DNA from: Zwartia panacis
Lineage (GTDB): Bacteria > Pseudomonadota > Gammaproteobacteria > Burkholderiales > Burkholderiaceae_B
Direction: 5' to 3'
Assembly: GCF_030410395.1 (NCBI RefSeq)
Contig: NZ_JAUHHF010000002.1
Coordinates: 248,001 to 312,000, forward strand
DNA: 64,000 nt
The notes beneath the pieces were generated by a model. It had not been told where the DNA came from and ran no database searches. It saw only the letters and a list, made by a program, of their open reading frames with translations. A program made the translations under genes and the position numbers. Position 1 is the first letter of the stretch. The number at the start of each line of letters is the position of its first letter. Shown here in pieces: positions 33,821 to 64,000 of the stretch.

Positions 33821-33875
33821 GTGAATCTCCAAAAGTTAAAAGCACAAGCGTGCGAAATAAGGCGGCAGCTGATGA

Positions 33876-34643: not shown

Positions 34644-34644
34644 G

Positions 34645-35244: not shown

Positions 35245-35301
35245 GGACCCAATGTAAGAGTCCACCGATCACGATAAGTCCCAATTAATGTACTTTTCAT
35301 C

Positions 35302-35817: not shown

Positions 35818-35821
35818 GTCA

Positions 35822-36265: not shown

Positions 36266-36340
36266 ATATGCCTCCTTTACAAATAAATTTCCAAAATTTT
36301 TTAGCCGATCTGTTGATCAACTTGTTTAGGGATTCATCTT

Positions 36341-36369
36341 ATGAGATGATTTGATTCATTTAATCTCAT
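36341..36369. promoter_or_regulatory. Inverted repeat between msrB and araC
   Basis: ATGAGAT (36341-36347) and ATCTCAT (36363-36369) flank a 15-bp spacer, 20 bp upstream of the AraC start and on the msrB side. The right part, TTCATTTAATCT, recurs upstream of the AhpD operon at 39509-39520. Likely a regulator site. Confidence 0.5.
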
Positions 36370-36388
36370 TTTGTGAACAATAAATCCC

Positions 36389-37222: not shown

Positions 37223-37275
37223 ATTTAAACGCTTTTCAAAAAGCTATACCTGGTCGAATTTATTTAATTTGAAAA

Positions 37276-37938: not shown

Positions 37939-37955
37939 AGTTTTCCTCGTTTTAT

Positions 37956-38903: not shown

Positions 38904-38933
38904 TTTGTTGTCCTATTGCAAATAGGAATCCGC

Positions 38934-45645: not shown

Positions 45646-45677
45646 GTTGGCCTGACAATTGACCCAGGAGGTACCGG

Positions 45678-46427: not shown

Positions 46428-46670
46428 GTGACGACCTCGACGGCGAAGGCCCTGGTGCTGACTGCTCTTTCCCCGAAGATCCGCCGGAGCGCCACCAAGG
46501 TGGCCCTCCTGGTCGGGAGTGTGCTCAACCTCATCAATCAGGGAGACGCAATTTTGGGTCCTGCGGAAATTTCGTGGGCTCACGTGGCACTCAACTTTTT
46601 CGTCCCCTTTTGCGTCTCCAGCTACAGCGCTGCAAGGAAGGGGTCTCCTCGTTTTCAGTGCAATAAGTGA
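46428..46670 (+). CDS. NrtS-like small nitrate/nitrite transporter, 3' end replaced by Tn3 end
   Basis: An 80-residue protein with two membrane helices: KVALLVGSVLNLINQGDAIL and WAHVALNFFVPFCVSSYSA match NrtS, a small nitrate/nitrite permease. The final ten residues [10 protein letters not shown] are encoded by the Tn3 inverted repeat, so the original C-terminus was cut; the core appears intact. GTG start, no strong ribosome site. Confidence 0.68.
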   Translation: MTTSTAKALVLTALSPKIRRSATKVALLVGSVLNLINQGDAILGPAEISWAHVALNFFVPFCVSSYSAARKGSPRFQCNK

Positions 46671-46740
46671 CGGTACGCAAAGCTAGCACTGGCGCGGGGG
46701 TGGTCTGGGTAGACCGTTGATTTCATTGACTTTCCTGTTC
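46640..46740 (+). repeat. Left terminal inverted repeat of Tn3 element
   Basis: The first 38 bp (GGGGTCTCCTCG to ACGGTACG) match the right end perfectly; similarity goes on to about 101 bp with five mismatches, far beyond the usual 38-bp Tn3 end. Confidence 0.9.
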
Positions 46741-46784
46741 GCTTTGTAAACGGGTATGGTGGCCTCCCACTTTTGAGGTTCACG

Positions 46785-49700: not shown

Positions 49701-49742
49701 AACCGACCACGGTTTGACGCCACGAATCGCAGATTTGAAAGT

Positions 49743-49843
49743 GAACAGGAAAGTCAATGAAATCAACGATCTACCAACACCACCTCCGCGCCAGTGCTAG
49801 CTTTTCGTACCGTCACTTATTGCACTGAAAACGAGGAGACCCC
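49743..49843 (-). repeat. Right terminal inverted repeat of Tn3 element
   Basis: Reverse complement of 46640-46740 with five mismatches in the inner 63 bp and a perfect outer 38 bp. Confidence 0.9.
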
Positions 49844-50221
49844 AACAAGTCCGGGCAGTTGGCACACCGGCTGATGTACGTCGATCTGGTGATCCTGGAT
49901 GAACTGGGCTACCTGCCGTTCACGCAGTCGGGCGGTGCGATGCTGTTCCACCTGCTCTCCAAGCTCTACGAGCGAACGAGCGTGGTGATCACCACCAACC
50001 TCACCTTCTCGGAATGGAGCAGCGTCTTCGGCGACGCCAAGATGACAACCGCCTTGCTCGACCGCCTCACGCACCACTGCCACATCGTGGAGACAGGCAA
50101 TGAGAGCTGGCGATTCAAGCACTCCAGTGCCGCTGGCGCGGCACCGTCCAAGCCACGTGCAAAAGCTCAGAAAGGAGATCGAAAAGCAGCAGACCCGATA
50201 GACTTATCCACAACCGAGTAG
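49844..50221 (+). pseudogene. istB: istB remnant
   Basis: 126 in-frame codons corresponding to IstB from just before Walker B ([20 protein letters not shown]) to the C-terminus ([20 protein letters not shown], then a Lys/Ala tail). The N-terminal half with Walker A is missing, cut at the Tn3 end. It cannot be an active helper ATPase. Confidence 0.92.
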
Positions 50222-50293
50222 CCAGAACATCCATCAACCCAGTGGCTCAGTATTCGACGTGATCACTGGCTCAGTTGTGCTGATGAATCAACA
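49844..50293 (+). mobile_element. IS21-family remnant, right end
   Basis: From the Tn3 boundary the sequence encodes the C-terminal part of an istB, then a right terminus with repeated ACTGAGCCA blocks (reverse strand) ending TGTTGATTCATC. The left half, including istA, is missing. It is a different IS21 subgroup from the element at 39723. Confidence 0.85.
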
Positions 50294-50377
50294 GGCACGT
50301 ATCGTTTTTCCTAACAGCGCACCCGTCCTTGATGGACGGCTCCGAAGATACATCTCAAACAGTCCACAAACCGTCTA

Positions 50378-51298
50378 CTAAAGCCATTTGAACCAGCGAA
50401 AGACCGCTACCAACCCAACACTCATTAGTAAGCAAAGACCTACCAACACCCAGAAGCCATTGGTGGCATCTGCGAACGGCAGTCCCAGAAGATTGGCGCC
50501 AAACAGGCCAGTGACAAAGTTCAAGGGCAAGAAGATTGTGGATACCACGGCAAAAAAATAAGAGCTTTGATTCAGCTGTCGCTCCTGAATGCGGTTTGCC
50601 TGGTCACTGAGGATATCGATACGGTCACGCAAATTCTCCAGCGTTTCGAGCAACCGCAACAGCTGGTTCAGGTGCTCCTCCAGTCGGCCTCGGTGATTTA
50701 TATTCAGCGGCGGGACGACGAGAGTTGTCAACGTTTGAAGAACGGCTCGCTGGGGGCCAAGATGACGAAGAAAGCCAGAGATCGCGGTCTGGGTATTGGC
50801 CATGCTCGGGCATGCCGCTTCCGTCTGGTGCTGAACCAGAAGGCCGCCGATCAGATCCACCCCATCCTCCAGCATCTCGACCTGCTCGGAAACTTCCGCG
50901 AGGTGCTCTTCGATGAGATCGCAAAGGAAGTCACCTGGCGTTGCAGGGCCGCGCCCCTGAGAGATGTCTTCTGCAAGTTCGAGGATGGGATCCACATCCT
51001 CCTCGCGGGTCGTGATAACCCGACGCTCATCAATCCAGATTCGCATGGACACCATGTCCTCTGGATGCCCCACTCCATCAGCTCTCAGATGCATCGCTTT
51101 GAGCAGAACCATCACACCCTGCCCGTGCGACCGGGTATCTTCAGAGACCATCGCTGCGGCGATCAGCTTGTCCAGGCCGGTCGCGCTCGAGAGAAAACCT
51201 TCCGTCTCGCGGTGGTGGATGCACATGTGCAACCACGACGCACCGCCGGTCATCTGGAGAAGATGGAGGAACCCAGGCGTACGCTCTGCTTCGATCAT
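50378..51298 (-). CDS. zntB: ZntB/CorA-family zinc transporter
   Basis: A 306-residue CorA/ZntB-type transporter: a large cytosolic N-domain (1-245) with RIWIDERRVITTRE and a long coiled stretch (LRLLETLENLRDRIDILSDQ), then two C-terminal helices with the pore-loop motif GAN in GLFGANLLGLPF (GxN), most like ZntB. It moves zinc or other divalent cations. It is the last gene of the long minus-strand operon and could supply or export zinc under oxidant stress. Confidence 0.85.
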   Translation of the reverse strand: MIEAERTPGFLHLLQMTGGASWLHMCIHHRETEGFLSSATGLDKLIAAAMVSEDTRSHGQGVMVLLKAMHLRADGVGHPEDMVSMRIWIDERRVITTREEDVDPILELAEDISQGRGPATPGDFLCDLIEEHLAEVSEQVEMLEDGVDLIGGLLVQHQTEAACPSMANTQTAISGFLRHLGPQRAVLQTLTTLVVPPLNINHRGRLEEHLNQLLRLLETLENLRDRIDILSDQANRIQERQLNQSSYFFAVVSTIFLPLNFVTGLFGANLLGLPFADATNGFWVLVGLCLLMSVGLVAVFRWFKWL

Positions 51299-51303
51299 GG
51301 CTC

Positions 51304-51840
51304 TCAGCCCACGGTGGATTCAACGTCAAGGTTAACGGTATCTCCAACCCGTAGCACGCCACCTACGACGATCCGTGCCGTGGCGCCCCCGTGACCACGC
51401 AGCGCGGCGTAACCGCCTTCACCGAGCTCGTCCTCCATGCGTGAACAAGGAGGACATGGCCCCGTGATTTCAATGCGGACCGAACCGCCAATTCGCCAGA
51501 CAAAGCGCTCTTCCCGGAAAGGTGAATGCATCGCGGCGATGTTGATCCCCGAGATCACGAGGTTGCGCCGCAAACGCTCCGGGGCAATTGGGGCTTGCCC
51601 CGTCCAGACCCCGAGCAAGCTGAGGTGCTCAGCCTGGATCAGACTCAGCTCGCGATGGCGTTGCGCATCCGACTGACGAAGCCGCAGGGAGCGGTGATCG
51701 CCAATCAGCCCGAGACCCGGTTCGGCCCTGGCCTCCTGCACGGACACAGCGTCCTTGAGGCGATCTGGGCGCAGAACGATGGCACCAAGTCGACCTGTGC
51801 CATGAAAGCGCCGGACCAAGTCGCGCAGCGTGCCGCCCAT
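51304..51840 (-). CDS. MOSC-domain protein
   Basis: A 178-residue MOSC-domain protein: LRPDRLKDAVSVQEARAEPGLGLIGDH, LRRNLVISGINI and the sulfur-site GPCPPCSRMED with the conserved cysteine. MOSC domains carry sulfur for molybdenum cofactor or reduce N-hydroxylated compounds. It ends 5 bp before zntB and lies in an operon that also encodes a molybdoenzyme at 55282. Confidence 0.85.
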   Translation of the reverse strand: MGGTLRDLVRRFHGTGRLGAIVLRPDRLKDAVSVQEARAEPGLGLIGDHRSLRLRQSDAQRHRELSLIQAEHLSLLGVWTGQAPIAPERLRRNLVISGINIAAMHSPFREERFVWRIGGSVRIEITGPCPPCSRMEDELGEGGYAALRGHGGATARIVVGGVLRVGDTVNLDVESTVG

Positions 51841-51863
51841 CGTTCAGACTCGAATGAGGTGCA

Positions 51864-52310
51864 TCACAAGACTTCCTCTATGTGCAGTTCGCGTTGCCGG
51901 AAGCTGACAACATCACCGGCTCGGGCATCTGCGATCGCTGCGTAGATGGGCGCCTGGGTGGAAATTCCCATGTAGGTGTTGCCGTCGCACTGGAAGGCAT
52001 CGCTAGCAACCGCAATCACGAACCAACGCCCGTCGATGCGAACCACGGCGCCTGTCTCCACCGAATCCCGGGGACCGAAATCGATCTGACGTAAGACTTC
52101 CAGGGCCTCCTGATGATCGTGAATGGGGCATTCGAACGCCTGCGCCAGAGCGGCATTGTTGACGGCCCGCGACGCCGCATCGCTTTCACTGGGTTCATCT
52201 CCGCGGCCCGCCGCACCGACCAGGTATTGCGCATAGGTCTGTTCAGCAAACCGCAGGCGCCCTTCGGCAAGGTCCAGCATGGTCTGGCGCAGATGGGTCT
52301 TGTTGCTCAT
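51864..52310 (-). CDS. Gre-factor-like domain protein
   Basis: A 148-residue protein with a C-terminal FKBP-like domain of the GreA/GreB type (SVETGAVVRIDGRWFVIAV, YMGISTQAPIYAAIADARAGDVV). The N-terminal coiled coil of true Gre factors is replaced by a short helical stretch, so it probably binds RNA polymerase without transcript-cleavage activity. Function unproven. Between egtD and MOSC in the operon. Confidence 0.65.
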   Translation of the reverse strand: MSNKTHLRQTMLDLAEGRLRFAEQTYAQYLVGAAGRGDEPSESDAASRAVNNAALAQAFECPIHDHQEALEVLRQIDFGPRDSVETGAVVRIDGRWFVIAVASDAFQCDGNTYMGISTQAPIYAAIADARAGDVVSFRQRELHIEEVL

Positions 52311-52323
52311 TAGGACTCCTTTT

Positions 52324-53301
52324 TCAGGTCGACGTTTGTTGCGTTGGGGTGAACGGTAGCCGGTGCCAGACGGTGATGGCGTACCAGCCTCGGGGGTCGG
52401 TCAGGGTGCAGGTGTTGTCAAACCCGCTTCGGCGTGCGAGGTGTTCGATTGAAGCCAGGGAGTATTTCTGGGATTGCTCTGTATAGATGGTCTCCCCGGC
52501 ATGGAATACAAACCCTCGGTCAAGGGTTCTGCTGTGGACCACCTGGTCAACTTGGCTCACCAGAAAGCTTCTGGCCACGTGTTCCAGCGGACAGTAGCTG
52601 GCGTAGTGCCGAAATTTCGTCAGATCGAAGTCCATGCCCAACTCGCGATTCAACCGCGTCAGCAGATTCAAATTGAACGCAGCGGTCACGCCCTGTGAAT
52701 CGTCGTATGCTGCGCGCAACATGGCCGGGTCCTTGACCAGATCCAGACCAAGCAGCACAAGGTCACCCGGGCGCAAATGCGAATGCACCCGCTGCAGCAG
52801 CTTGACGGCACCGTGTTCGTCGAGGTTGCCCAGATTGCTGCCCAGCAACATTGCAACCTGGCGTCGCCCTTCGGCAATCTGAGGCCAATGCTCGAAATAG
52901 TCTCCCAGCACCGGTTCGATGGCCATGCGGGGGAGGTACGTGTCAAAGCGGCGGCTCAGATCCGCTAGGGCGTGTGCGGACACATCCATAGGCCTGTAGA
53001 TGCAATCCACTTCACGTTGCGCCAGTGCCTGGCACAGCGACAGCGTTTTGGCCCCGTCGCCGCTGCCCAGTTCAATCAGATCGATCGGGCTGCACCGAGG
53101 ATCTATCCACCGGGAAAGCTCATCCGCGCGTGAGCGCAGCAGCTCGTGCTCAAGGCGTGTGAGGTAGTACTCGGGCAGCGCCATGATCTGCTGAAACAGG
53201 CGCGAGCCCTCATCGTCGTAGAACCAAGCGGATGAGAGCGCCTTCTGTGGTCGCGTCAACCCTTGCAGAACATGCTCCGTCAGTCTGTCCCGATCAGTCA
53301 T
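52324..53301 (-). CDS. egtD: L-histidine N-alpha-methyltransferase
   Basis: A 325-residue EgtD. It methylates histidine three times with SAM to hercynine, the first step of ergothioneine synthesis. IELGSGDGAKT is the SAM loop, with LLGSNLGNLDE and YDDSQGVTAAFNLNLLTRLN as family blocks. ATG 53301 overlaps the egtB stop by 4 bp. The frame is open further upstream to 53691 but would overlap egtB. Confidence 0.92.
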   Translation of the reverse strand: MTDRDRLTEHVLQGLTRPQKALSSAWFYDDEGSRLFQQIMALPEYYLTRLEHELLRSRADELSRWIDPRCSPIDLIELGSGDGAKTLSLCQALAQREVDCIYRPMDVSAHALADLSRRFDTYLPRMAIEPVLGDYFEHWPQIAEGRRQVAMLLGSNLGNLDEHGAVKLLQRVHSHLRPGDLVLLGLDLVKDPAMLRAAYDDSQGVTAAFNLNLLTRLNRELGMDFDLTKFRHYASYCPLEHVARSFLVSQVDQVVHSRTLDRGFVFHAGETIYTEQSQKYSLASIEHLARRSGFDNTCTLTDPRGWYAITVWHRLPFTPTQQTST

Positions 53302-54506
53302 GCGGACTCCCGCGAGCGAACAGGACGGATGCCCGTGAACTGCCAACGCAACGGAGCGTGAAAGAAGTTCCGGTATGTCAAACGGGCGTGGCCCGGCGAT
53401 GTGGCCCAGGACGCTCCGCGCAAGACCTGCTGGTTCACCATGAACTTCCCGTTGTATTCGCCCACTGCGCCCTCGCTGCGGGCAAAACCGGGATAGGGCT
53501 GATAGGCACTGCGCGTCCATTCCCATCGACGCCCCCAGTCGAACCGGCTTGCCGCTGCTTCCCACTCGAACTCGGTGGGCAATCGCCACCCCGCCCAATC
53601 GCAGAAAGCGTGTGCCTCGTAGTAACTGACATGCGTGACTGGTGCCTGACTGGTCAGCGGCATCACCCCCTGGAGCGTGTAATGACCCCATCCGTCAGGC
53701 TGGTTAGGGTCGGGCTGCCAGTACATCGGCGCACGGAATTTAAGCGTTTGCACCCAGTCCCAGCCTTCCGCATGCCAGAGCGAATGGCGCTGATATCCTC
53801 CGTCGCGCATGAACTGAAGGTATTCATCATTGGTGACTAGCGCCACACGGATGTCTACTCCTTGAATGAGCGCCAAATGCGATGGCGACTCGTTGTCGAA
53901 GGCGAACCCTGGCCCCTGGTGGCCCATGCGAATCGTCTGCCCTTCGACGCTAAGCCAATCGTCCAGTGGTGGGCAGGTTCCATCATGTTCGGCCGTCACA
54001 TCTTGGGGACCGATGCCCAGAGGGTCATACGCCGGATGCAATGGGTTGTGGCCCAGGATGTACTTGATGTCTGTGATCAGCAACTCCTGATGCTGTTGTT
54101 CATGCTGCATGCCCAGCTCTACCAAGGCCGCGACCGCGGGCTCCAGTGGTTCCTTCAGCATACGGCGCATGGACTCGTCCACATGCGCGCGATACGCCAT
54201 CACCTCAGCCACCGTCGGGCGACTCAAGCTCCCTCGCTGCGGGCGTGCCAGGTGAGCGCCCTCCGATTCGTAGTAGCTGTTGAACAGGTAGCCATACAGA
54301 GGATGGAACAGTCGATAGTCCGGCTGTTGTTTCGCGAGGACAAAAGTCTCGAAGAACCACGTGGTGTGGGCCAAGTGCCACTTCGGCGGACTGACGTCGG
54401 AAACCGGTTGGGGAACATGGTCCTCGGCACTCAGAGGGGCACACAGACGTTCGCTGCGCGAACGGACAGAGACGTATCGGGTTAGGCGGATGTCTTCAGG
54501 TGTCAC
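53298..54506 (-). CDS. egtB: Hercynine sulfoxide synthase
   Basis: A 402-residue EgtB: DinB_2-like domain about 1-170 with the iron ligands in QHEQQHQELLITDIKY (HxxxHxE) and an FGE-sulfatase domain about 185-400 ending RLTYRNFFHAPLRWQFTGIRPV. It joins cysteine or gamma-glutamylcysteine to hercynine. GTG start. No egtC or egtE lies here, so any such steps must be done by genes elsewhere. Confidence 0.92.
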   Translation of the reverse strand: MTPEDIRLTRYVSVRSRSERLCAPLSAEDHVPQPVSDVSPPKWHLAHTTWFFETFVLAKQQPDYRLFHPLYGYLFNSYYESEGAHLARPQRGSLSRPTVAEVMAYRAHVDESMRRMLKEPLEPAVAALVELGMQHEQQHQELLITDIKYILGHNPLHPAYDPLGIGPQDVTAEHDGTCPPLDDWLSVEGQTIRMGHQGPGFAFDNESPSHLALIQGVDIRVALVTNDEYLQFMRDGGYQRHSLWHAEGWDWVQTLKFRAPMYWQPDPNQPDGWGHYTLQGVMPLTSQAPVTHVSYYEAHAFCDWAGWRLPTEFEWEAAASRFDWGRRWEWTRSAYQPYPGFARSEGAVGEYNGKFMVNQQVLRGASWATSPGHARLTYRNFFHAPLRWQFTGIRPVRSRESA

Positions 54507-54527
54507 GGCAGATGAGAAAAAAGAGAG

Positions 54528-55289
54528 TCAACTTCCGAAGCGCTCGGTGCGGATGGAGACCTCGGGCACATTTAGCCCGGTGACCATATGAACGATGGAC
54601 TCGACAAAGTCATTACGCCCGCAGATGAAAACCTGCGCAGATTCGGTCGCCACATCACCCAATTGCTGCAATGCCCAAGCAACATCGGCTCCATCAATGC
54701 GGCCAACGTGGTCCTGTGCGCGCGGGGCACAGGTATCCCGCGAGAGCGCCAGTCGGCTGCGAAACCGCGGCGTAAACGCTTCCCATCGCTGCAGGGTGGG
54801 CCAGAGCAACACTTCGTCAAGATGGCGTGCGGCAACCAACAGCGTTGTATGCGCTTGGCTGTATGCACCCACGCGTTGCGCTGCCATGGACAAAAGGGGA
54901 ACGACGCCAGATCCTCCCCCAATCAGCAAGGCTGGTCGTGTGTTCGACTCGTCAAGCACAAAATGACCTCCAACCGGTCCGAGGACTTCAATCGTTTCGC
55001 CGTGCTGGGCCTTGTCGTGAAACCAGGTGGATACTTCGCCATCGTCCAAACGCTCAATGCCAAGCTCATAGAGCCCGGTACGTTGAGGAGGTGAGAGGAG
55101 TGAATAGCTCCGTTGTGCCTGATAGCCGTCTTCCGCTGTCAGTCGGACATCCAAATGCTGGCCCGGCCTCGGGCGAACCCATCTGTCAGGACGCAGCACC
55201 ACCCGCATGACGCGTGGAGTCAGTGCCTGCAACGCATCGATGCGTGCGGTCTGCCAGCTCAGCCGGTGTTGACCAACAGCCTCATCCAT
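54528..55289 (-). CDS. FAD/NAD(P)-binding ferredoxin-reductase-like protein
   Basis: A 253-residue ferredoxin-NADP-reductase-type protein: FAD site RSYSLLSP, phosphate-binding GGGSGVVPLLSM and C-terminal CGRNDFVESI. It lacks an iron-sulfur domain, so it uses FAD only. Start ATG 55289 lies 8 bp inside the preceding molybdoenzyme gene. The two usually pair, this one donating electrons to the molybdenum centre. Confidence 0.88.
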   Translation of the reverse strand: MDEAVGQHRLSWQTARIDALQALTPRVMRVVLRPDRWVRPRPGQHLDVRLTAEDGYQAQRSYSLLSPPQRTGLYELGIERLDDGEVSTWFHDKAQHGETIEVLGPVGGHFVLDESNTRPALLIGGGSGVVPLLSMAAQRVGAYSQAHTTLLVAARHLDEVLLWPTLQRWEAFTPRFRSRLALSRDTCAPRAQDHVGRIDGADVAWALQQLGDVATESAQVFICGRNDFVESIVHMVTGLNVPEVSIRTERFGS

Positions 55290-55890
55290 AGCGCTCTTCC
55301 TTGAAAGGGTCGCCTCGCATGTGATAGCCCCGCAGTTCCCAGAACCCGGCCTCGTCGCGCTCGTTGAACTGCAGCGCATTGACCCACTTGGCCGACTTCC
55401 AGAAGTAGAGATGCGGCACCAACAGGCGTGCCGGTCCCCCGTGCTCGGGCGCGAGCGGTCGGTCGTCGTAGTGCGTTGCGATCATTGCGCGCCCTTGTGT
55501 CAGATCGGCCAACGGCACGTTGGTGGAGTAGCCGTCCTGAGAATGCGCCAACACCCAAGGCGTGGGCGCTTCCAGTCCGGCCGCCTGCAACAAGGTGTCC
55601 AACGTCACACCGCGCCAGCGGGTGTCGAATTTCGACCAGGTGGTAACGCAATGGATATCGACCACCTGCTCGGTCTGGGGCAGGGCCTGGAATTCGCTCC
55701 AGGTCCAAACGCGAACCGGCCGCACACCGACCTTCAAGGTCAAGCGCCAATCGCCAAGCGCCAAGGCTTTTGGGGTGGGGCCCGCAGTCAGCACGGGAAA
55801 ACCTTCCGTCAGGGACTGTCCTGGCGGAAGTCGACCGCCGTGGTTGTGGACATCGCGATTGCGGCCGCTGAATGAGCGGTTGATGGGCAT
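55282..55890 (-). CDS. Sulfite-oxidase-like molybdoenzyme
   Basis: A 202-residue molybdopterin oxidoreductase of the COG2041 group, with no signal peptide. The molybdenum ligand cysteine is in VDIHCVTTWSKFDTRWRG; VLAHSQDGYSTNVPLADL and LVPHLYFWKSAKWV are also conserved. ATG 55890 has GGAGGA nine bases upstream; a GTG at 55911 would overlap the upstream stop by 4 bp. With its reductase it may reduce an oxidised sulfur or nitrogen compound in the cytosol. Confidence 0.87.
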   Translation of the reverse strand: MPINRSFSGRNRDVHNHGGRLPPGQSLTEGFPVLTAGPTPKALALGDWRLTLKVGVRPVRVWTWSEFQALPQTEQVVDIHCVTTWSKFDTRWRGVTLDTLLQAAGLEAPTPWVLAHSQDGYSTNVPLADLTQGRAMIATHYDDRPLAPEHGGPARLLVPHLYFWKSAKWVNALQFNERDEAGFWELRGYHMRGDPFKEERYG

Positions 55891-55907
55891 GGTGTGGGTC
55901 CTCCGGC

Positions 55908-57317
55908 TCACCCAGAACTTGCGGTCAAGGGCTTGCGTCGATCAATGATGGTGGGCAGGAACTCGGTGACCGTCGGGTGAACGGGCAATGCATCCCGGAC
56001 CAACTTCCAGGTGCCGCCACTGGCCATCACCAGACCGATCGCCTGAATGATCTCGTCCGACTGGATCCCGAGCATGGTCGCTCCGAGGAAATGACCACTG
56101 TCCTCATCGATGAGGAGCTTGATCTTGCCCACGGTTTCGCCTTCTTCCTTCGCGCGACTGACGTCCTTCATGGCGTGAACCGCCTGGGAAATGCGTCGCC
56201 CTTCGGTCACGAGTTTTCGCGCGTCGGCCTCATAAAGACCGACGTGGGCCAGCGGAGGATCGGTAAACATGGCATAAATGCCGACGCGCGCGGCGGCGCT
56301 GCGTTGCCCTCCGGCCAGGTTCTCCGCCACGATGTCCTGATCGTGGTAGCTGGTGTGGGTAAAGGCCCCGCGCTGATTGATGTCACCCAGCGCCCAGATG
56401 CCGGGAACCGCGGTTTCGAGCCGGTCGTTGGTGACCAGGTAGCCTCGCGCACTGACCTCCAGGCCCACCGTTTCCAGGCCCAGACAGTCGGTGTTCGGTA
56501 TTCGCCCGGTGGCCACCAGCAGGTGGCTGCCATCCACGCTGCGGCCACCAGCCAACTGCACCCGCACGCCAGCGTCGTTGTCCGCCTTGCCGACCCGCTC
56601 AATGCGCACGCCGGTGTTCACTTCGATGCCTTCCGCTGTCAGCATTCCGGTCACAGCGGCTGCAATGTCCTCGTCCTCGCGGGCCGTGAGGCGGGGCCCT
56701 GTTTCCAGAATGGCAACCTCACTTCCCAGCCGCCGAAAGATCTGAGCCATCTCCAGGCTGATGTATCCACCGCCGATGATCACCAGCCTGGACGGTAATT
56801 CACGCAGCGCCAACAGCCGTTCGTTGTCCAGGAACGGCAGCTCGTCCAGCCCAGGCACCGGCGGAACAAAGGGACGTGTGCCGGTGTTCAGCACCACCTT
56901 GGGCGCCACCAGCTGATGCTCGCCGGCCAGCACCACGAACTGTTCGCCTTCACGGCCCGCCAGGCGACCGCGCGCCTTGATGATGGTGAGTCCTTCCAAC
57001 TGGCCCAGCCAGGCCTGCAGGCCAGAGCGAGCCTCCTCCACCCGGCGTTGCATGCGCTCCATCGCTGCCCTGAAGTTGACCTGGACCGACCCGGTTTGCA
57101 CACCGAATTCGCTGGCCCGGCGCGCCATGTGAGCCACACGAGCCGACTTGCGTAGGGTCTTGGTTGGGGTGCAGCCCCGATTGACACAGGTACCACCCAG
57201 GTCACGCTCCTCGATGAGCGCCACCTTCATACCCCGGGCAACGAGTGTCGCGCCCAGAAAGGGACCGGCCTGACCGGCTCCGATCACGATCGCGTCGAAC
57301 CTCTGTTCCCCGCTCAT
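55908..57317 (-). CDS. RclA/mercuric-reductase-like flavin oxidoreductase
   Basis: A 469-residue pyridine-nucleotide-disulfide oxidoreductase. FAD site VIGAGQAGPFLGATLV, redox disulfide GGTCVNRGCTPTKTLRKSAR, NAD site IIGGGYISLEMAQIF, and a dimer domain with HPTVTEFLPTI. E. coli RclA has the same layout (CxxxxC then PTKT) and protects against hypochlorite. Start ATG 57317 overlaps the DUF427 stop by 4 bp. Confidence 0.85.
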   Translation of the reverse strand: MSGEQRFDAIVIGAGQAGPFLGATLVARGMKVALIEERDLGGTCVNRGCTPTKTLRKSARVAHMARRASEFGVQTGSVQVNFRAAMERMQRRVEEARSGLQAWLGQLEGLTIIKARGRLAGREGEQFVVLAGEHQLVAPKVVLNTGTRPFVPPVPGLDELPFLDNERLLALRELPSRLVIIGGGYISLEMAQIFRRLGSEVAILETGPRLTAREDEDIAAAVTGMLTAEGIEVNTGVRIERVGKADNDAGVRVQLAGGRSVDGSHLLVATGRIPNTDCLGLETVGLEVSARGYLVTNDRLETAVPGIWALGDINQRGAFTHTSYHDQDIVAENLAGGQRSAAARVGIYAMFTDPPLAHVGLYEADARKLVTEGRRISQAVHAMKDVSRAKEEGETVGKIKLLIDEDSGHFLGATMLGIQSDEIIQAIGLVMASGGTWKLVRDALPVHPTVTEFLPTIIDRRKPLTASSG

Positions 57318-57595
57318 GGCCGCACCTCGACACCGCGCCAGAACGCCACCCTGCCGGTCACCGCCTCCGCACCAGCCTTGGGCGACGGGTAGTACCACGC
57401 CGCGTCAGCGTTCACGTCTTCGCCGACCACGACGTCGTAGTAGCTGGCCCGCCCCTTCCATGGACAGGTGGTGTGCGTATCGCTTGGTTTGAAATGTTCC
57501 GGGCGCAACGCGTCGTGTGGGAAATAGGCGTTGCCTTCAACTTCCACGATGTCATCGCTCTCAGCGATGGTGGTGCCTTTCCAGATGGCTCTCAT
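57314..57595 (-). CDS. DUF427 protein
   Basis: A 93-residue DUF427 protein: MRAIWKGTTIAESDDIVEVE, then HTTCPWKGRASYYDVVV and a C-terminal VTGRVAFWRGVEV. The beta-rich domain is of unknown function, often found in oxidative-stress loci. Start ATG 57595 was chosen because of the N-terminal family sequence and the GGAGACGGAG before it. It overlaps the next gene by 4 bp. Confidence 0.88.
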   Translation of the reverse strand: MRAIWKGTTIAESDDIVEVEGNAYFPHDALRPEHFKPSDTHTTCPWKGRASYYDVVVGEDVNADAAWYYPSPKAGAEAVTGRVAFWRGVEVRP

Positions 57596-57627
57596 GCTCC
57601 GTCTCCTTCGTTTGTGTGTGGTTGGGA

Positions 57628-58848
57628 TCAGTCCCGAATCAGTGTGGTGGTGATCACCGGATGGTTCTCCAGCGTTCGATGCACGGGGCAACGATCGGCG
57701 ATGCGCAACAGGTCCTGTCGCTGGCTTTCACTCAACGGTCCGCTCAGCAGGAGCTGCCGCGTGACGTGGTCAACCTGTCCCGAGCGATCCCCGCACTCCT
57801 GGCAATCGGTCGCGTGCGCGCGCTCATGACGCAACCTGACCTGGACATCCTTGAGCGCATAGCCTTTTCGCTTGGCGTACTGGCGCAATGTCATGGACGT
57901 GCAGGCGCCCAGCGACATCAGCAGAAGTTCATAAGGATCGGGCCCGCGTTCGCCACCACCCACTTCCTTGGGCTCATCGGCGTCGAGGTGGTGCGGACCT
58001 GCTCGCATCGATCGCCAGAAGGCGTGATCGTGCTCCCCCACCCACACCTCGCCCGCACGAAGGTCCGACGGCGCATCGTTTCGCTCGGCTCGCATCGGCA
58101 GAAACCGCGAGGCCCAGGCGCCAATCAGGTCAGCCGCATACTGCGCATCGGCCGGGCGCGTGAGCAGATGGTCCGCATCGTCCAGGCTGATGAAACTCTT
58201 AGGATGTCTGGCCGCCTTGAACAGGTCCTGTGCCTCGCCGATGTCCACCACCGCGTCACTTGGCGCGTGCATAACCAGCAAGGCCGCGCGAAGCCCCTTG
58301 ACCGGGTTCTCGTGGGCTTGGGCCTGGAGCTCTTCAATGAAGGCCGGCGCGATCCTGAACGCCCGGCCGCCCAGGTCGACCTGGATCTGCCCATCCTCTT
58401 CGGACTTGGTCGGACCGAAGTGACGAAGCACATGGTCGGCCGTCGCGGGTGCGCCCAGCGTGCAAACCGCCCGTATGCCGTCGAGGCGGGCAGCCGCCGC
58501 GATGGCCGCCGTCCCCCCCAGGCTGTGTCCGACCAACAGTGCAGGCATGCCGATCGTGCTCTGCATCCAGTGCACCGCCGCCACAATGTCCGCCACGCTG
58601 GACGAAAAGCCACCGCGCCCGAAGTCGCCTTCGCTCTCGCCCAGACCGGTGAAATCAAAGCGCAGCGTGGCGATGCCCTGCTGAGCCAGCGCCCGGCTGA
58701 TGCGGGTCGCGGCGAGAGAGTTCTTTCCGCAGGTAAAGCAGTGGGCAAACACCGCCAGGGCTTGTAACGGTGCATGGTCCGGGCGTTCCAAGACACCCAC
58801 CAGCAGACCCTGGCTGCTGCCAGCGAAGCCTACCTTTTCGCTGCTCAT
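57628..58848 (-). CDS. Fused alpha/beta-hydrolase and OsmC-family protein
   Basis: A 406-residue two-domain protein. The alpha/beta-hydrolase (about 1-255; nucleophile in VGHSLGGTAA) is fused to an OsmC/Ohr domain (about 270-406) with LLMSLGACTSMTLRQYAKRKG and ADRCPVHRTLENH carrying the two reactive cysteines. OsmC enzymes reduce organic hydroperoxides. The hydrolase may cut esters of fatty-acid peroxides first. Start ATG 58848 overlaps the upstream stop by 4 bp. Confidence 0.9.
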   Translation of the reverse strand: MSSEKVGFAGSSQGLLVGVLERPDHAPLQALAVFAHCFTCGKNSLAATRISRALAQQGIATLRFDFTGLGESEGDFGRGGFSSSVADIVAAVHWMQSTIGMPALLVGHSLGGTAAIAAAARLDGIRAVCTLGAPATADHVLRHFGPTKSEEDGQIQVDLGGRAFRIAPAFIEELQAQAHENPVKGLRAALLVMHAPSDAVVDIGEAQDLFKAARHPKSFISLDDADHLLTRPADAQYAADLIGAWASRFLPMRAERNDAPSDLRAGEVWVGEHDHAFWRSMRAGPHHLDADEPKEVGGGERGPDPYELLLMSLGACTSMTLRQYAKRKGYALKDVQVRLRHERAHATDCQECGDRSGQVDHVTRQLLLSGPLSESQRQDLLRIADRCPVHRTLENHPVITTTLIRD

Positions 58849-59816
58849 GCTTTCTCCAGTGCCAGGGCGTTGATGCAGTAGCGCAGACCGCTGGGCTTGG
58901 GTCCGTCGGGAAACACGTGACCCAGGTGGGCGTCGCAGACGTTGCACGTCGTCTCCACCCGCACCATGCCGTGGCTGTTGTCTCCGTGATAGCCCACCAG
59001 ACCCGGGGCAATGGCCTGCGTGAAGCTGGGCCAGCCGCTGCGGCTGTCATATTTGGTCGACGCATCGAATAGTTCAGTGCCGCAGCACACGCACCGGTAG
59101 ATCCCGGGCGAAAACAGCGTACACATCGAGGAGCTGTGCGCCCGTTCGGTGCCCTTGAGCCGCGTGATTCGGAACTGCTCGGGCGTCAGCTGTTGGGCCC
59201 ACTCGGCTTCGCTGCGCTCAACTCGGCGCGGTGGCGTCGGGTTGCCCGTTTCCACCAGTTGAATCACTCCTTTCCAAGTCAACATGTCGGGCCCAGGCTC
59301 CGGTGCCGCCGGTTCGTTTTCCAGCCGCTTGAGAAAGGTGACGAGCTTGTCGGCGTCGATTCGGAAATGGTTGTAGACCACTCTGCCATCGGGATCGATC
59401 AGGATGAACCAGGGTGTGCCGCCGTTGCGGTAGCGGCGCATCAGCTCCGAACCCGCGCCGTCCTGTTCGTCACCGGCGTCGTGCCCGAAGGGAATGCCCA
59501 GCGCGTAGCGGGAGTGATTGGCCAGCATGCGCTCCCAGGTGTTCGAACCGAAGTCCTCGAACACGGTCTGGACTGCGGCGAACCCGACGAAGTCGCTCCC
59601 CCGAAACGCGTCGACCACCCGGGCAAGCGCCGGAAAGCCGGTCGCATGGCACCCCGGGCAGGCGTCCTGAAAACAGAAGATGAGCTTGAACCGGCCGGGC
59701 ATGCGGTCCAGGTCGAAGTGTTCCAGCGCCTGGCCCGACGCGTCCACCCACCGGGTCACACCCAGGGGAGCGGCCGCTTCGCCAAGGACACCGGGTTCCT
59801 GTTTCGTTGTGGTCAT
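58845..59816 (-). CDS. Redoxin-MsrB fusion
   Basis: A 323-residue fusion. The N-terminal thioredoxin-like redoxin (about 15-170) has CPGC in FQDACPGCHATGF; the C-terminal MsrB (about 195-323) has zinc pairs CVCC and CNVC and the catalytic cysteine in GLRYCINALAL. The usual resolving cysteine is serine (YDSRSGWPSF), so the redoxin may reduce MsrB directly. Its redoxin half matches the free redoxin at 61060. Start ATG 59816 was chosen over 59852. Confidence 0.9.
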   Translation of the reverse strand: MTTTKQEPGVLGEAAAPLGVTRWVDASGQALEHFDLDRMPGRFKLIFCFQDACPGCHATGFPALARVVDAFRGSDFVGFAAVQTVFEDFGSNTWERMLANHSRYALGIPFGHDAGDEQDGAGSELMRRYRNGGTPWFILIDPDGRVVYNHFRIDADKLVTFLKRLENEPAAPEPGPDMLTWKGVIQLVETGNPTPPRRVERSEAEWAQQLTPEQFRITRLKGTERAHSSSMCTLFSPGIYRCVCCGTELFDASTKYDSRSGWPSFTQAIAPGLVGYHGDNSHGMVRVETTCNVCDAHLGHVFPDGPKPSGLRYCINALALEKA

Positions 59817-59852
59817 GCGAAGTCTCCTTTCAGAAATCGTTGGGTACCCCAA

Positions 59853-61055
59853 TCAGGTGCCGCAGAAGGTGCGGTGGGCTGCGGCCACTTCGGGCGAGGC
59901 CGGCAGCGTGAATGGCCGCGCGGACTCCACCGTCTCGTACGGCCGCCCCAGCACCGCCAGCAGGCGCTCGAACGGACCGAGGTCGGCCTCGTCCACGGCA
60001 CTCGACAGCGCCGCCTCCACCTGGTGATTGCGCGGGATCACGAAGGGATTGACCGACCACGCCGTTGCGGCGCAGTCCTGCAAGGTCCTTCCCTCCCGGG
60101 CCATGCGCTGGCGCCAGCGCGCCATGGCCGGCTGCTGGCCGTAGGCATATCGCCCCTGACGGTCGATCGAGCTGAACACCGTGGCCGGATCGAAACCCTC
60201 CATGAACGCACACGGACCATAGTCGATGGTCTCGCCCGAAATGCTCATGTTGTCGGTGTTCATCACCCCGTGGATGAAGCCCACGCCCATCCAGCGTGCA
60301 ATCAGCTGCGCCTGCCGCTCACAGACGGCCTCCAGCATCGGAATGGGCTTGTCGGAAAGCTTGGCGAGGGCGGGGTCATGCCGCGCCACGGCATAGTCGA
60401 GCAGCCGCCGAAGCATCACCTCCTCCTCCCGCGCCGCGAAGAACTCAAAAGTGCCCACCCGCAAGTGGCTGGCCGCCACGCGCACCAAGATCGCCCCGGG
60501 GGGCGAGCCCTCGCGGTTCACCCGCTCACCGGTCCGGATCACCGCCAGCGCACGCGTCGTGGGAATGCCCAACGCGTGCATGGCCTCGCCCATGAGGTAC
60601 TCGCGCAGCGCCGGGCCCAGTGCCGCCTTGCCATCGCCACGGCGCGAAAACGGCGTACGGCCCGACCCCTTGAGGGCCAGGTCCCGACGCTGTCCTGCCG
60701 TGTCGATGAGTTCCCCGAGCAGCAAGGCGCGGCCATCCCCCAAGTGTGGCGAGAACTGGCCGAACTGGTGTCCCGCGTAGGCCTGCGCCAGCGGCGCCGC
60801 CTCAGCCGGCATTTCCACGCCGGACAGCCACGCCAGACCGGTCGCAGACTTCAGCGTCGCCGGCTCCAGCCCCAGCTCCAGCGCCAGGGCGTCGTTGAAC
60901 TGCACCCAGGCCGGGGCCGGGGACGGCTCGGGCTTCCAAGGCACATAGAACCCCTGCATGTCCCGGAAGAAGCTGTTGTCAAACGGCAGCCGAAACGCCG
61001 GGCCCGTCCCCGGCGTCTTCGGCTCCGACACGGCCTTTGGTGTGGACGCACGCAT
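59853..61055 (-). CDS. selO: SelO-family protein AMPylase, internally deleted
   Basis: A 400-residue SelO (YdiU) protein; the family is about 480 residues. The pseudokinase region is intact, with LLLGELIDTAG, LKGSGRTPFSRRGDG and HGVMNTDNMSISGETIDYG. The sequence then jumps from YGQQPAMARW to RQRMAREG and ends in VNPFVIPRNHQ...HRTFCGT, so about 85-95 residues of the helical insert are missing in frame. SelO AMPylates proteins in oxidative stress. Start ATG 61055, 4 bp after the redoxin stop. Confidence 0.85.
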   Translation of the reverse strand: MRASTPKAVSEPKTPGTGPAFRLPFDNSFFRDMQGFYVPWKPEPSPAPAWVQFNDALALELGLEPATLKSATGLAWLSGVEMPAEAAPLAQAYAGHQFGQFSPHLGDGRALLLGELIDTAGQRRDLALKGSGRTPFSRRGDGKAALGPALREYLMGEAMHALGIPTTRALAVIRTGERVNREGSPPGAILVRVAASHLRVGTFEFFAAREEEVMLRRLLDYAVARHDPALAKLSDKPIPMLEAVCERQAQLIARWMGVGFIHGVMNTDNMSISGETIDYGPCAFMEGFDPATVFSSIDRQGRYAYGQQPAMARWRQRMAREGRTLQDCAATAWSVNPFVIPRNHQVEAALSSAVDEADLGPFERLLAVLGRPYETVESARPFTLPASPEVAAAHRTFCGT

Positions 61056-61059
61056 GACT

Positions 61060-61548
61060 TCAGGCCGCCTTGAGACCATCGTTCGAAGCGCCGAACGCCC
61101 CGATCAGCTGCCGCTCGTCGAGCTCGAAGTCGCTGTAGAGCACCTCGTCCAGCGGATCGATCACCAAAAACCACGGCGTGCCGCGCGTCCCGTAGTCCGC
61201 CACGAGCGACGACGCGCGTCCGATCGCAGGGTCGTGTCCGAACGGAATGTTCAAGCCGTAGCGCAACTGCGTCTCGCGCAGGCGCTCGAAGGTGTTGGAC
61301 TCGGCGCCCTCGAACACGGTCTGCACCGCGGCAAACGCGAAGCCGCGATCGCCCAACGCCTTGATCAGCTTCTGCAGGGTCGGAAAGCCATGGCTGTGGC
61401 AGCCCGGACACCAGTGCTGGAAGCAGAAGATCACTTTGAACCCGTCGCCCAGATCGGACAGCTTCAGCGGTGCCATGCTGCGCCCTTCGCCGTCGATCCA
61501 CCACGGCACCCGCAGCTCGGGCGCCTGTTGAATGCACCGGGATTGCAT
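61060..61548 (-). CDS. Redoxin (thioredoxin-like)
   Basis: A 162-residue thioredoxin-like redoxin: CPGC in FQHWCPGCHSHGF, FAAVQTVFEGAESNTFERL and RGTPWFLVIDPLDEVLY. It is a paralogue of the redoxin half of the fusion at 58845. No signal peptide. Start ATG 61548 has GAGGAG 6 nt upstream; ATG 61554 is too near. It could serve the MsrA encoded upstream as an electron donor. Confidence 0.87.
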   Translation of the reverse strand: MQSRCIQQAPELRVPWWIDGEGRSMAPLKLSDLGDGFKVIFCFQHWCPGCHSHGFPTLQKLIKALGDRGFAFAAVQTVFEGAESNTFERLRETQLRYGLNIPFGHDPAIGRASSLVADYGTRGTPWFLVIDPLDEVLYSDFELDERQLIGAFGASNDGLKAA

Positions 61549-61633
61549 CACCATCTCCTCAGGAAAAAAACAGACACACCGGGTCGGCCCGCCCACTGGC
61601 GCGCCGACCCCCACCGTTCTTGAGCGTTGGCCG

Positions 61634-62143
61634 TCAGCCGATCTCGCGTCGCGGCAGCTTCCAGCCCGCACGGGGGTAGTGGCAGGTGTAGCCGTTGGGG
61701 TGCTTGACCAGGTAGTCCTGATGCTCGGGCTCGGCCTCCCAGAACGGCCCCGCGGGCGCGAGCTCGGTGACCACCTTGCCCGGCCACAAACCCGAGGCAT
61801 TCACATCGGCAATGGTCTGCTGCGCCGTGGCCAGCTGCTCGTCCGAGGTGTAGAAAATGGCCGACCGGTAGGAACTGCCGCGGTCATTGCCCTGGCGCCC
61901 CGGGGTGCTCGGATCGTGGATCTGGAAGAAGAACTCCAGCAGGTCGCGAAAGCTCGTCTGCGTGGGGTCGAACTCCACCTCCAACGCCTCGGCGTGGGTG
62001 CCGTGGTTGCGGTAGGTGGCGTTGGGCACATCGCCGCCGCTGTAGCCCACACGGGTGCGCAACACGCCAGGCAGCTTGCGCACCAGGTCCTGCATGCCCC
62101 AGAAACAACCGCCGGCCAGGACTGCTTTTTCGCTCGGGTTCAT
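61634..62143 (-). CDS. msrA: Peptide-methionine (S)-S-oxide reductase
   Basis: A 169-residue MsrA, GC-rich paralogue of the enzyme at 35302. The catalytic cysteine is in [34 protein letters not shown] and [20 protein letters not shown] follow. Start ATG 62143 has GGAG upstream; the open frame begins at 62158. First structural gene after the AraC regulator. Confidence 0.94.
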
Positions 62144-62267
62144 CGTGATCTCCTTCAAAGTTCTGCCTCAAGGCATTGAACCTGAAGTCGGGTCCGTTCG
62201 GCACAGCACAACGGCATTCGGCGTCCGCATCACGCCACCGATCGTCCAGAACCAGGGCGCGATGGAC

Positions 62268-63119
62268 CTACGGCTGACTCAGATGCTCCATCTGCCAAGC
62301 GCTGGGCGATTGCCCCGAGGCCCGTTGAAACGCTCGCGCGAATGCGGTGGCATTACCGTAGCCCACCTGAGAGGCCACCGCCTTCACTGCCTGCCCTTGC
62401 GCGAGTAGGTTGCGGGCAACCGCCATGCGCCAGTGGGTCAAGTAGGTCAACGGCGGTATGCCCACCACCTGGACAAAGCGCAGGGCAAAGGCAGACCGGG
62501 ACAGGTGCGCCAGCTCCGCCATGCTGTCAAGCGTCCAGTCGTGCTCTGGCGATTCGTGCAGCATGGACAGCACCACACCCAGACGGCTGTCGACCATGGC
62601 CTCCAGCACACCGCCGGACAGCAGTTGCCGATCAATCAGGTGACGCACAAGCACCACGAAGGTGTATTGCAGCAGGCGGTCGATCGCTGCCCGATAACCA
62701 AAAGCACGTGCCTCGGCCTCCTCGAACAGCAGCTCTACCGGTCGCTGCAGCGATGACGTGGCGGTCAAGTCAATCACCGTGACGTCCGGCAAGATCATGT
62801 CCAGCGGCGGCGCCAATTCACTGAGGGTGGCGCACATCAGGTCCACCCCCTGCGGCCCTGAGCCCTGAACCCAGTGCTCCAACGCGCGGGGAAGCAACAG
62901 CACGCTGGGCGCCCGCACGTTCAGCGGCGCAAAGCCCTTGCGCGTCAGTTGCAGCTCGCCGCGACTCAGCAGGTGCATCGTCCCCTGCTTGAGGCCGTCA
63001 GCCTCGGATCCCTGCGTCAGGGTACAGAGATTTCCCGAGAAAAACATGCGCGCCGTGGGGGTGAACCGTAACAGCTGGTTCAGCAGAGAGGCGTTCGGCA
63101 AGGGAGTGCTTTGGTTCAA
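62268..63119 (-). CDS. AraC-family regulator, RclR-like
   Basis: A 283-residue AraC regulator with an N-terminal cupin_6 domain and a double HTH (WTLDSMAELAHLSRSAFALRF, ASQVGYGNATAFARAFQRASGQSPSAWQ). Cys32 and Cys96 align with the redox cysteines 21 and 89 of RclR. A TTG start at 63119 is needed for a full-length protein. It reads into the msrA-to-zntB gene row and probably controls it; divergent from glnS. Confidence 0.86.
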   Translation of the reverse strand: MNQSTPLPNASLLNQLLRFTPTARMFFSGNLCTLTQGSEADGLKQGTMHLLSRGELQLTRKGFAPLNVRAPSVLLLPRALEHWVQGSGPQGVDLMCATLSELAPPLDMILPDVTVIDLTATSSLQRPVELLFEEAEARAFGYRAAIDRLLQYTFVVLVRHLIDRQLLSGGVLEAMVDSRLGVVLSMLHESPEHDWTLDSMAELAHLSRSAFALRFVQVVGIPPLTYLTHWRMAVARNLLAQGQAVKAVASQVGYGNATAFARAFQRASGQSPSAWQMEHLSQP

Positions 63120-63188
63120 GCGCGTGACACCTGTTGTGGGTTAGACCTTGATTATATTGGAGCTTCCGCCTCTCCTTAGAATGACTGC

Positions 63189-64000
63189 ATGCCCCCCCCG
63201 TCCCTTTCGTCCAGCATCTCTCGACACCACCAAGCTCCCGCAGAAATTGAGGGCCAGGCGCTCAGGACGTCAAACTTCCTGCGCCAGGTCATTGAAAAAG
63301 ACCTCGCCACCGGCACCTACGCCCAGCGCCAATGGGGCGGCGGCCCGGGTGATGCCGCCTTCCACGACGCCGGCCAGCCCGACCCGGCCAAGATCCGCAC
63401 CCGCTTCCCGCCCGAACCCAACGGCTACCTGCACGTGGGCCACGCCAAGAGCATCTGCCTGAACTTCGGCCTGGCGCGCGACTACGGCGGCGTCTGCCAC
63501 ATGCGCTTTGACGACACCAACCCCGAGAAGGAAGAAAAGGAGTACGTGGACTCCATCCTCGACGCGGTGCAGTGGCTGGGTTTCAACTGGGAATCCAACT
63601 TCAACGGCAAGCAGGAAAGCCACCTGTACTACGCGTCGAACTACTTCGACTTCATGTACCGCGCGGCCGAATACCTTATCACCGCCGGCCACGCCTATGT
63701 GGACGAGCAGACAGCCGAAGACATGCGCATCAACCGCGGCGACTTCGGCAAGCCCGGCGTGGACAGCCCCTTCCGCAGCCGCAGCCCGGAAGAGAACCTG
63801 GCCCGCTTCCGCGAGATGCGCGACGGCAAACTGGCCGACGGCGCCGCCGTGCTGCGCGCCAAGATCGACATGGCCTCGCCCAACATCAACCTGCGCGACC
63901 CGGCCATCTACCGCATCCGCCGCGCCACGCACCACAACACGGGCGACGCCTGGTGCATCTACCCCATGTACACCTTCGCGCACCCCATCGAGGACGCGCT
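63189..64000 (+). CDS. glnS: Glutaminyl-tRNA synthetase, partial
   Basis: The first 270 codons of Gln[22 protein letters not shown] opens the catalytic domain, [20 protein letters not shown] holds the HIGH-type motif, and [16 protein letters not shown] and [12 protein letters not shown] follow. The gene is cut by the window edge before the KMSKS motif. Very GC-rich, unlike the left part of the window. Its 69-bp leader is shared with the AraC gene. Confidence 0.95.

Follow-up and report, generated by a model that had tools for sequence, protein, structure and literature searches.

What is the run of fifteen genes that occupies positions 50378 to 63119 of a 64,000-nucleotide stretch of the Zwartia panacis genome, and how did it come to lie there? 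The stretch, referred to as the window, corresponds to C22:248001-312000 in a host genome of 3.34 Mb and 54 contigs. All fifteen genes are read from the minus strand, from an AraC-family regulator (63119) down to ZntB (50378). Their order is AraC, MsrA, redoxin, SelO, redoxin-MsrB fusion, alpha/beta hydrolase-OsmC fusion, DUF427 protein, FAD disulfide reductase, molybdopterin oxidoreductase, FAD/NAD reductase, EgtB, EgtD, a protein of 148 amino acids (aa), MOSC protein and ZntB. A preliminary description of the sequence had taken them for an oxidant-defence operon under an RclR-like regulator. We propose that the run is the cargo of an IS1071 composite transposon that moved into this genome as one unit; judged from the sequence, this reading has a probability of about 0.8.

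The gene run lies between two copies of IS1071

Two insertion sequences flank the run. Each is 3204 bp long and carries inverted repeats of about 106 bp, and the two are 100% identical and in direct orientation. The left copy lies at 46640..49843 on the plus strand; the right copy lies at window-extended positions 66208-69411 (L063 2208-5411), 2.2 kb past the window end. They were named after near-identical elements (at least 99.9%) annotated as IS1071 in plasmids. The left copy holds an intact tnpA (46773-49700), which encodes a Tn3-family transposase of 975 aa that matched DDE_Tnp_Tn3 with an E value of 8e-100, and an identical second transposase lies 2.3 kb past the window end. The 6 bp AAGGAA is duplicated outside the outer ends of both IS1071 copies, at 46634..46639 on the left and directly after 69411 on the right.

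The cargo between the two copies (49844..64000, and on to window-extended 66207) measures 16,364 bp, or 16,694 bp with the SelO stretch found in other copies. The whole unit is 22.8 kb long here and reads IS1071, zntB to msrA and araC, glnS, a truncated gene of the isocitrate lyase/PEP-mutase family, and IS1071. The last codons of the PEP-mutase-family gene (L063 1396-2238) are IS1071 sequence, so this gene is probably broken. The same IS1071 tail also ends a redoxin-like open reading frame (ORF) in plasmid pOS401. At the opposite end of the cargo there is an IS21 istB-related fragment (49853..50121, plus strand), annotated as IS21 family or as ATP-binding protein in two copies, that matches at 71% a part of the IS21-type element at 39828-42150.

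The unit was found elsewhere with the same two inner junctions, flanked by duplications of GTATT in an A. denitrificans plasmid and of TACCGG in an A. insolitus plasmid. Because three different target duplications go with the same inner junctions, these sequences suggest three or more moves of the 22.8-kb element as a whole.

We asked whether the run could be an ordinary resident chromosomal operon of the species, with the IS1071 copies incidental. Most of its genes appear intact, and the glnS beside it resembles the core chromosome. On the other side stand the target duplication of the unit and the shared inner junctions, copies at 98-99.9% on plasmids of other genera, another glnS elsewhere in the genome, and a guanine plus cytosine (GC) content of 0.625 in the cargo against 0.557 in the left flank (40.0-46.6 kb). 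A resident operon is therefore highly improbable.

IS1071 composite transposons of the Tn5271 type classically carry catabolic cargo. The present element resembles them in having two intact IS1071 copies around a cargo, a target duplication, and an occurrence on plasmids and contigs of Comamonadaceae and other water bacteria. It differs in its cargo, which consists of oxidant repair genes and a spare aminoacyl-tRNA synthetase, with no degradation pathway. IS1071 composite elements and oxidant operons are each of a known kind, but a fifteen-gene oxidant-defence composite with its own glnS was not found in the open literature. There, no paper joined IS1071 with this cargo (the search covered open-access papers); IS1071 together with ergothioneine or methionine sulfoxide gave none, and IS1071 with hypochlor gave unrelated titles.

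Copies in other genomes and on plasmids

One genome for each of 84,980 species was scanned with the redoxin alignment, which returned 397 relatives, and the best 80 of these were analysed. Among the 80, 21 loci (L090-L110) carry the redoxin of the element at 96-99%. They lie in about 20 other genomes, several of them metagenome-assembled genomes (MAGs), and hold the transposon cargo or parts of it. The carriers belong to Thauera, Pseudoxanthomonas, Hydrogenophaga, Dechloromonas, Acidovorax, Limnobacter, Curvibacter, Competibacteraceae, Diaphorobacter, Aquabacterium, Xenophilus and others. Acidovorax soli DSM 25157, an environmental carrier like Thauera sp. 2A1, has two versions of the locus, L100 and L126. 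Compared with the window copy, the 21 loci show 2 to 955 differences over 3,657-14,815 covered bases. Six carrier contigs are 16,708-17,107 bp long, that is, the length of the cargo (16,694 bp) plus a little, and from these lengths they appear to stop at the repeated IS1071.

A search of 72,556 plasmid records gave 54 matches, 20 of them at 95% or more. Seven of the 20 extend over 80% or more of 13.8 kb, and the remaining 13 (Klebsiella 10, Aeromonas 2, Serratia 1) hold only a four-gene core, the msrA-redoxin-selO-redoxin-msrB end of the run, up to a common break at 62196. In the two core plasmids that were viewed, the place of araC just upstream of msrA is taken by a relB/dinJ-type antitoxin gene or by a gene without a name; two Comamonas plasmids, in which the remainder of the operon is present, show the same arrangement. 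The core has drug-resistance genes nearby in a Klebsiella IncC plasmid (L172 8001-12146) and an Aeromonas plasmid (L173 8001-12679), and in both msrA begins 24 bp after another gene (antitoxin-like in L172). A link to phages or E. coli was considered and rejected: the msrA-to-msrB stretch had no match in E. coli genomes, and phages gave one weak operon match of 2%.

The gene set recurs in diverged loci

We counted the cargo genes in 59 diverged loci (L111-L169, not all independent) with a redoxin identity of 50-72%, which by organism names belong to Pseudomonadota, Acidobacteria, Nitrospira and Bacteroidetes. For controls, twenty 20-kb stretches were positioned by hand within nine genomes, of which seven came from the class sample and two were carriers. 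MsrA was found in 55 of the 59 loci, MsrB in 53, SelO in 33, the molybdoenzyme in 25, the Gre-like protein of 148 aa in 24 and the FAD disulfide reductase in 23. Lower counts were obtained for OsmC and the FNR-type reductase (15 each), ZntB (14), DUF427 (13), EgtB (12), EgtD (10), glutaminyl-tRNA synthetase (GlnRS; 8), AraC (3), MOSC (1) and the PEP-mutase-family gene (0), and one locus (L116) had none of the genes at the threshold used. In the 20 control stretches, MsrA and the FNR-type reductase were each found once and every other gene, the Gre-like one included, was absent.

A Rubrivivax locus (L115) held 15 of the 16 counted genes at 55-80% identity. Their order was nearly kept; zntB had moved, 6 kb separated araC from msrA, and araC and glnS pointed away from each other as they do in the window. 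As 21 loci elsewhere hold all or parts of the arrangement and diverged forms recur too, it is not a chance one. SelO by itself is too common to mark the element, being present in 70 of 143 class-sample genomes (the host's own included), and the redoxin-MsrB query matched in 276 of 300 cases because MsrB is common. Conserved co-occurrence elsewhere, on which the preliminary description had let its operon stand or fall, was thus found in the 59 diverged loci. The co-directional oxidant-defence set that it described is backed by gene content, tight spacing and this strong co-occurrence. The preliminary description missed its status as transposon cargo, the recurring glnS and the Gre-like factor.

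Several observations weigh against an IS1071 unit with oxidant-defence cargo. Plasmid pOS401 has the same inner junctions and shows no target duplication of the unit; the left inner junction is different in L179; and similarity ends before the right IS1071 in L094 (62196), L102 (63767), L106 (65106), L107 (65181) and L110 (65477). L106 moreover differs at 955 of 13,709 bases. A near-identical copy was present in one of the 399 genomes of the order sample, the window's own. Several carriers are MAGs, in which plasmid contigs can be misbinned, and L090 and L092 look like one Thauera plasmid entered twice, which makes the host range partly uncertain. A close AraC occurs in only 3 of the 59 diverged loci and the MOSC gene in one, which puts the conservation of the regulator and the tail below that of the core. 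Finally, the link to chlorine that is considered below is based on co-location only.

Gene order and spacing within the run

ORF coordinates bore out the single strand of the fifteen genes and the widest gap, 124 bp between AraC and MsrA. Six overlaps had been counted in the preliminary description; with the starts used in annotated copies we found four, namely -4 between the redoxin-MsrB and OsmC fusions, -4 between DUF427 and the RclA-like reductase, -8 between the sulfite-oxidase-like protein and the FNR-type reductase, and -4 between EgtB and EgtD. At the ten non-overlapping junctions the gaps range from 4 to 124 bp.

The regulator (62268..63119) is followed by MsrA (61634..62143), the stand-alone redoxin with its CPGCH motif (61060..61548), SelO (59853..61055), the redoxin-MsrB fusion (58845..59816) and the alpha/beta hydrolase fused to OsmC (57628..58848). 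The DUF427-domain protein (57314..57595), the FAD disulfide reductase of the MerA/RclA superfamily (55908..57317) and the sulfite-oxidase-like molybdopterin oxidoreductase (55282..55890) come next, together with the FAD/NAD(P) reductase (54528..55289), perhaps the electron donor to the molybdoenzyme. The ergothioneine biosynthesis protein EgtB (53298..54506) and the histidine N-alpha-methyltransferase EgtD (52324..53301) precede the 148-aa protein (51864..52310), the MOSC-domain protein (51304..51840) and ZntB, a CorA-family cation transporter (50378..51298).

Pfam and NCBIfam profiles supported AraC, MsrA, SelO, SelR with a weak redoxin match, alpha/beta hydrolase with OsmC, the FAD disulfide reductase, molybdopterin oxidoreductase, FAD/NAD reductase, EgtB-type, EgtD, MOSC and CorA; annotated copies gave the same names for the molybdopterin oxidoreductase, EgtB and EgtD. 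The stand-alone redoxin had no family match of its own in these scans and was named from its 46% identity to the fused redoxin and from the annotation of copies. DUF427 was assigned to the window ORF from the annotation of a near-identical copy.

A scan of 49600-63600 by a weak method gave 0 sigma-70-like promoters, where shuffled sequence would lead one to expect 2.0, and 9 terminator-like sites over the two strands, against an expectation of 10.4. As neither count exceeds the shuffles, this weak scan left no mark of internal breaks in the run. Within the window there was no tRNA gene, and no Rfam family scored above its threshold.

The element could also be a real mobile stress island built of several promoters or sub-modules, with the MsrA-redoxin-SelO-MsrB core as the selected unit. 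The 13 plasmids with the core alone and the position of msrA behind an antitoxin-type or unnamed gene in the four plasmids mentioned above favour such a division, and gaps of 124 bp before msrA and 85 bp before the redoxin fit it. Farther downstream, however, no gap exceeds 36 bp, four junctions overlap, and terminator-like sites are not in excess. We consider sub-modules possible but doubtful.

Regulator, reductase and the likely oxidant

The labels RclR-like and RclA-like, given in the preliminary description, hold as a distant resemblance with one aligned cysteine and not as family assignments, since neither protein comes near its NCBIfam cut-off (89.5 of 400 bits for the regulator against RclR, 300.3 of 740 bits for the disulfide reductase against RclA). 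RclR has two sensing cysteines. In the regulator, C96 aligns with an E. coli RclR cysteine and C32 lies three columns from RclR C21. The reductase is 35% identical to E. coli RclA and keeps the CxxxxC motif. Thus the run shares with E. coli rclR-rclABC an AraC-type regulator and a flavin disulfide reductase. Apart from the low scores, it differs in having many more repair genes and in that 14 of the 15 run proteins, when scanned with Pfam, gave no DUF417 (RclC-type) domain. The Cupin_6 and HTH domains of the regulator, its C96 and C32, and a weak -10-like box in other copies suggest an oxidant-sensing activator.

On this basis, the AraC-type regulator would sense oxidation through its cysteines and switch on one long transcript. 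Oxidised methionine would be repaired by MsrA and redoxin-MsrB, perhaps also by the molybdoenzyme/reductase pair, while peroxide removal and disulfide reduction would fall to OsmC and the redoxins. The FAD reductase, EgtB/EgtD (through which ergothioneine would be made) and SelO may serve the thiol redox state and its control by nucleotidylation, and the Gre-like protein may keep RNA polymerase working under stress. The cargo likely gives resistance to reactive chlorine or similar strong oxidants, which would probably be met in treated water, sludge and wastewater.

Is the selected function rather directed at metals, xenobiotics or another toxicant, with the redox genes secondary? The classically catabolic cargo of IS1071 would fit this, as would the presence of ZntB and a MerA-superfamily reductase and the position of some copies near mer or drug-resistance genes. 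But seven of the fifteen genes (MsrA, the two redoxins, one of them MsrB-fused, the OsmC fusion, the disulfide reductase, EgtB and EgtD) act by family on oxidised methionine, thiols or peroxides, and the disulfide reductase falls under the MerA cut-off (322.5 against 454.45 bits). Another toxicant thus appears decidedly unlikely as the target.

In two Achromobacter plasmids, a chlorite-dismutase (cld) transposon lies inside the cargo, at two different places (L170 22730-28601 and L178 19119-24993), which is one ground for the proposed link to chlorine. Besides chlorite dismutase, the inserted transposon has cupin, toxin-antitoxin and recombinase genes, and the annotation of L178 no longer shows selO or the stand-alone redoxin. 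In the parts of Barnum and Coates 2022 (PMC9751292) drawn on here, cld neighbourhoods are described as mobile and as holding methionine sulfoxide reductases, peroxiredoxin, glutathione S-transferase, recombinase and plasmid-stabilisation genes. One cargo-inserted cld transposon shares its recombinase and toxin-antitoxin accessions with the cld neighbours listed in that paper: WP_012435588, WP_011342942 and WP_011342941 of its Table 1 lie in the cld transposon inside one cargo copy. The IS1071 element is like these neighbourhoods, as far as the same parts of the paper describe them, in its mobility and in shared kinds of redox gene. It differs in that the transposon itself is without cld, and SelO, ydiU and ergothioneine have 0 occurrences in the main text of PMC9751292.

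If the proposal of an IS1071-borne oxidant-defence cargo is true, tolerance of disinfection-type oxidants would be portable, carried by a transposon vehicle that is well known, and would occur in bacteria of sludge and water and, partly, on plasmids of hospital isolates. SelO, for which a literature listing gives AMPylation, UMPylation and NAD hydrolysis as rival roles, would gain a clear partner set in MsrA, MsrB and redoxin. A family of Gre-like factors would be tied to oxidant defence, and the question is raised why such islands carry a spare glutaminyl-tRNA synthetase.

The Gre-like protein

The 148-aa protein has an N-terminal coiled coil and a C-terminal beta domain, as in the Gre factors GreA, GreB and Gfh1, and its gene product is predicted to be a Gre-type RNA-polymerase factor. 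Unlike those factors, the window protein itself had no match to Pfam GreA_GreB. Five of the 19 members of its alignment matched GreA_GreB weakly (best E value 0.0019), and in the PDB Gfh1 was matched with an E value of 0.044.

The second glnS

The cargo glnS (63189..64000 on the plus strand, and on to L063 1048) encodes a GlnRS of 619 aa and is divergent from araC and the operon; the other glnS of the host lies at C22:160303. GlnRS genes were counted in 18 genomes reached through 21 redoxin loci, L098 (a 22nd locus) being left out. Thirteen of the 18 had at least two GlnRS genes, and eight of these 13 hold the transposon's own glnS. Once the genomes with the transposon's glnS are set aside, at least two GlnRS genes remain in five of ten. 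Among 80 genomes of the order that were at least 95% complete, 72 had a GlnRS match and only the window's genome has two; in the one other genome with two matches these were a single gene in two pieces, so that at least two GlnRS genes occurred in 0 of 79 controls.

The extra glnS may be a mere passenger, captured with its segment from a comamonad chromosome. Its GlnRS nests among native Hydrogenophaga enzymes, and the adjoining PEP-mutase-family gene ends in IS1071 sequence, both of which favour this reading. Against it, the cargo DNA resembles four native glnS regions over the gene and nowhere beside it, so no chromosomal flank came along with glnS; in one of the four regions the contig breaks off just before the gene. 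In addition, diverged versions of the operon have GlnRS genes of other lineages within 10 kb, and the operon-linked enzymes are scattered among native ones on the tree with at least four label changes. Weighing both sides, we find a passenger quite possible, its chances being somewhat short of even.

A more far-reaching idea is that oxidant-defence islands repeatedly take up, as a functional part, a second GlnRS of independent origin (and, in one sister module, an arginyl-tRNA synthetase, ArgRS). Mobile and oxidant-tolerant, it would stand in for an essential enzyme disabled by oxidation, next to a Gre-type factor devoted to keeping RNA polymerase in motion. This would liken the spare GlnRS to target bypass in drug resistance; we advance it tentatively and think it rather unlikely. 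Linked GlnRS have fewer cysteines (p 0.0025, kinship among rows uncorrected). As the reason for the spare GlnRS, this was rejected and kept as a hint, since the rows are related and the T2 group has a mean of 6.8 cysteines per 600 residues against 6.9 in its nearest native relative. The T3 GlnRS forms a long branch and its tree position is unsure.

In pOS401, a diverged sister module with an ArgRS gene lies next door to the element; this module was also found in L111 at 91%. It lies between IS1071 copies (L175 6528-27112) and holds diverged egtD, egtB, reductases, gshB, AraC, msrB and msrA, and further a glutathione S-transferase-like gene, corA, grxC, another msrA, argS, a redoxin and a Gre-like protein.

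Changes private to the window copy

The window cargo (16.4 kb) was compared with up to 30 other copies. Five single-base changes are private to it, each seen against 6 to 29 copies, and zntB has a private in-frame deletion of 12 bp relative to 7 copies that show the extra bases.

The selO gene has a private in-frame deletion of 330 bp between 6-bp repeats (60119-60124), by which 110 internal residues are gone. The deleted stretch is present in all 21 genome copies and in eight of nine plasmid copies; in the ninth (A. insolitus), the cld transposon lies at this position. With these copies full in the stretch, a naturally short SelO family was ruled out. The deletion may be an assembly error in this one genome. 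The window SelO scored 319.9 against a Pfam cut-off of 22.8 bits and 442.2 against 431 for the NCBIfam YdiU family; it lies below the NCBIfam SelO equivalog (280.7 against 900 bits) and is without the full-length C-terminal region. A longer SelO elsewhere in the host covers positions 2-464 of the 466 of the Pfam model.

One of the five private single-base changes turns GATAAT into TATAAT, a consensus -10 box, at 63151..63156 on the minus strand, 31 bp before the araC start. None of the 24 other copies that span this putative box has the same first base (those displayed read GATAAT), and TATAAT would be expected to give a stronger araC promoter. A shared operator motif upstream of AraC was also sought and dropped: near-identical copies share nearly all of this region, and the diverged L114 and L115 do not align.

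Genes around the transposon

Further Msr, peroxiredoxin and AhpD-like genes, accompanied by AraC-type regulators, were recognised by eye in the host flanks, a point in favour of the proposed oxidant defence against reactive chlorine. Directly outside the transposon (L063 5443-8821 and window 45079-46367) there is an AraC regulator 40% identical to that of the operon; AhpD-like, thioredoxin-like, glutathione-reductase-like and HAD dehalogenase-like genes were recognised by eye in the same stretches. An IS21-type istA/istB pair (39828-42150) and a serine recombinase (43062-44564), also named by eye, lie beside the transposon. A separate oxidant cluster of lower GC content, read by eye from the translations, occupies window positions 30458-39473. 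It contains an MsrP-like molybdoenzyme with a cytochrome-like partner, MsrA (35302), MsrB (35822), an AraC regulator (36389), two glutathione S-transferases, a peroxiredoxin (37276) and an AhpD-like protein (38934).

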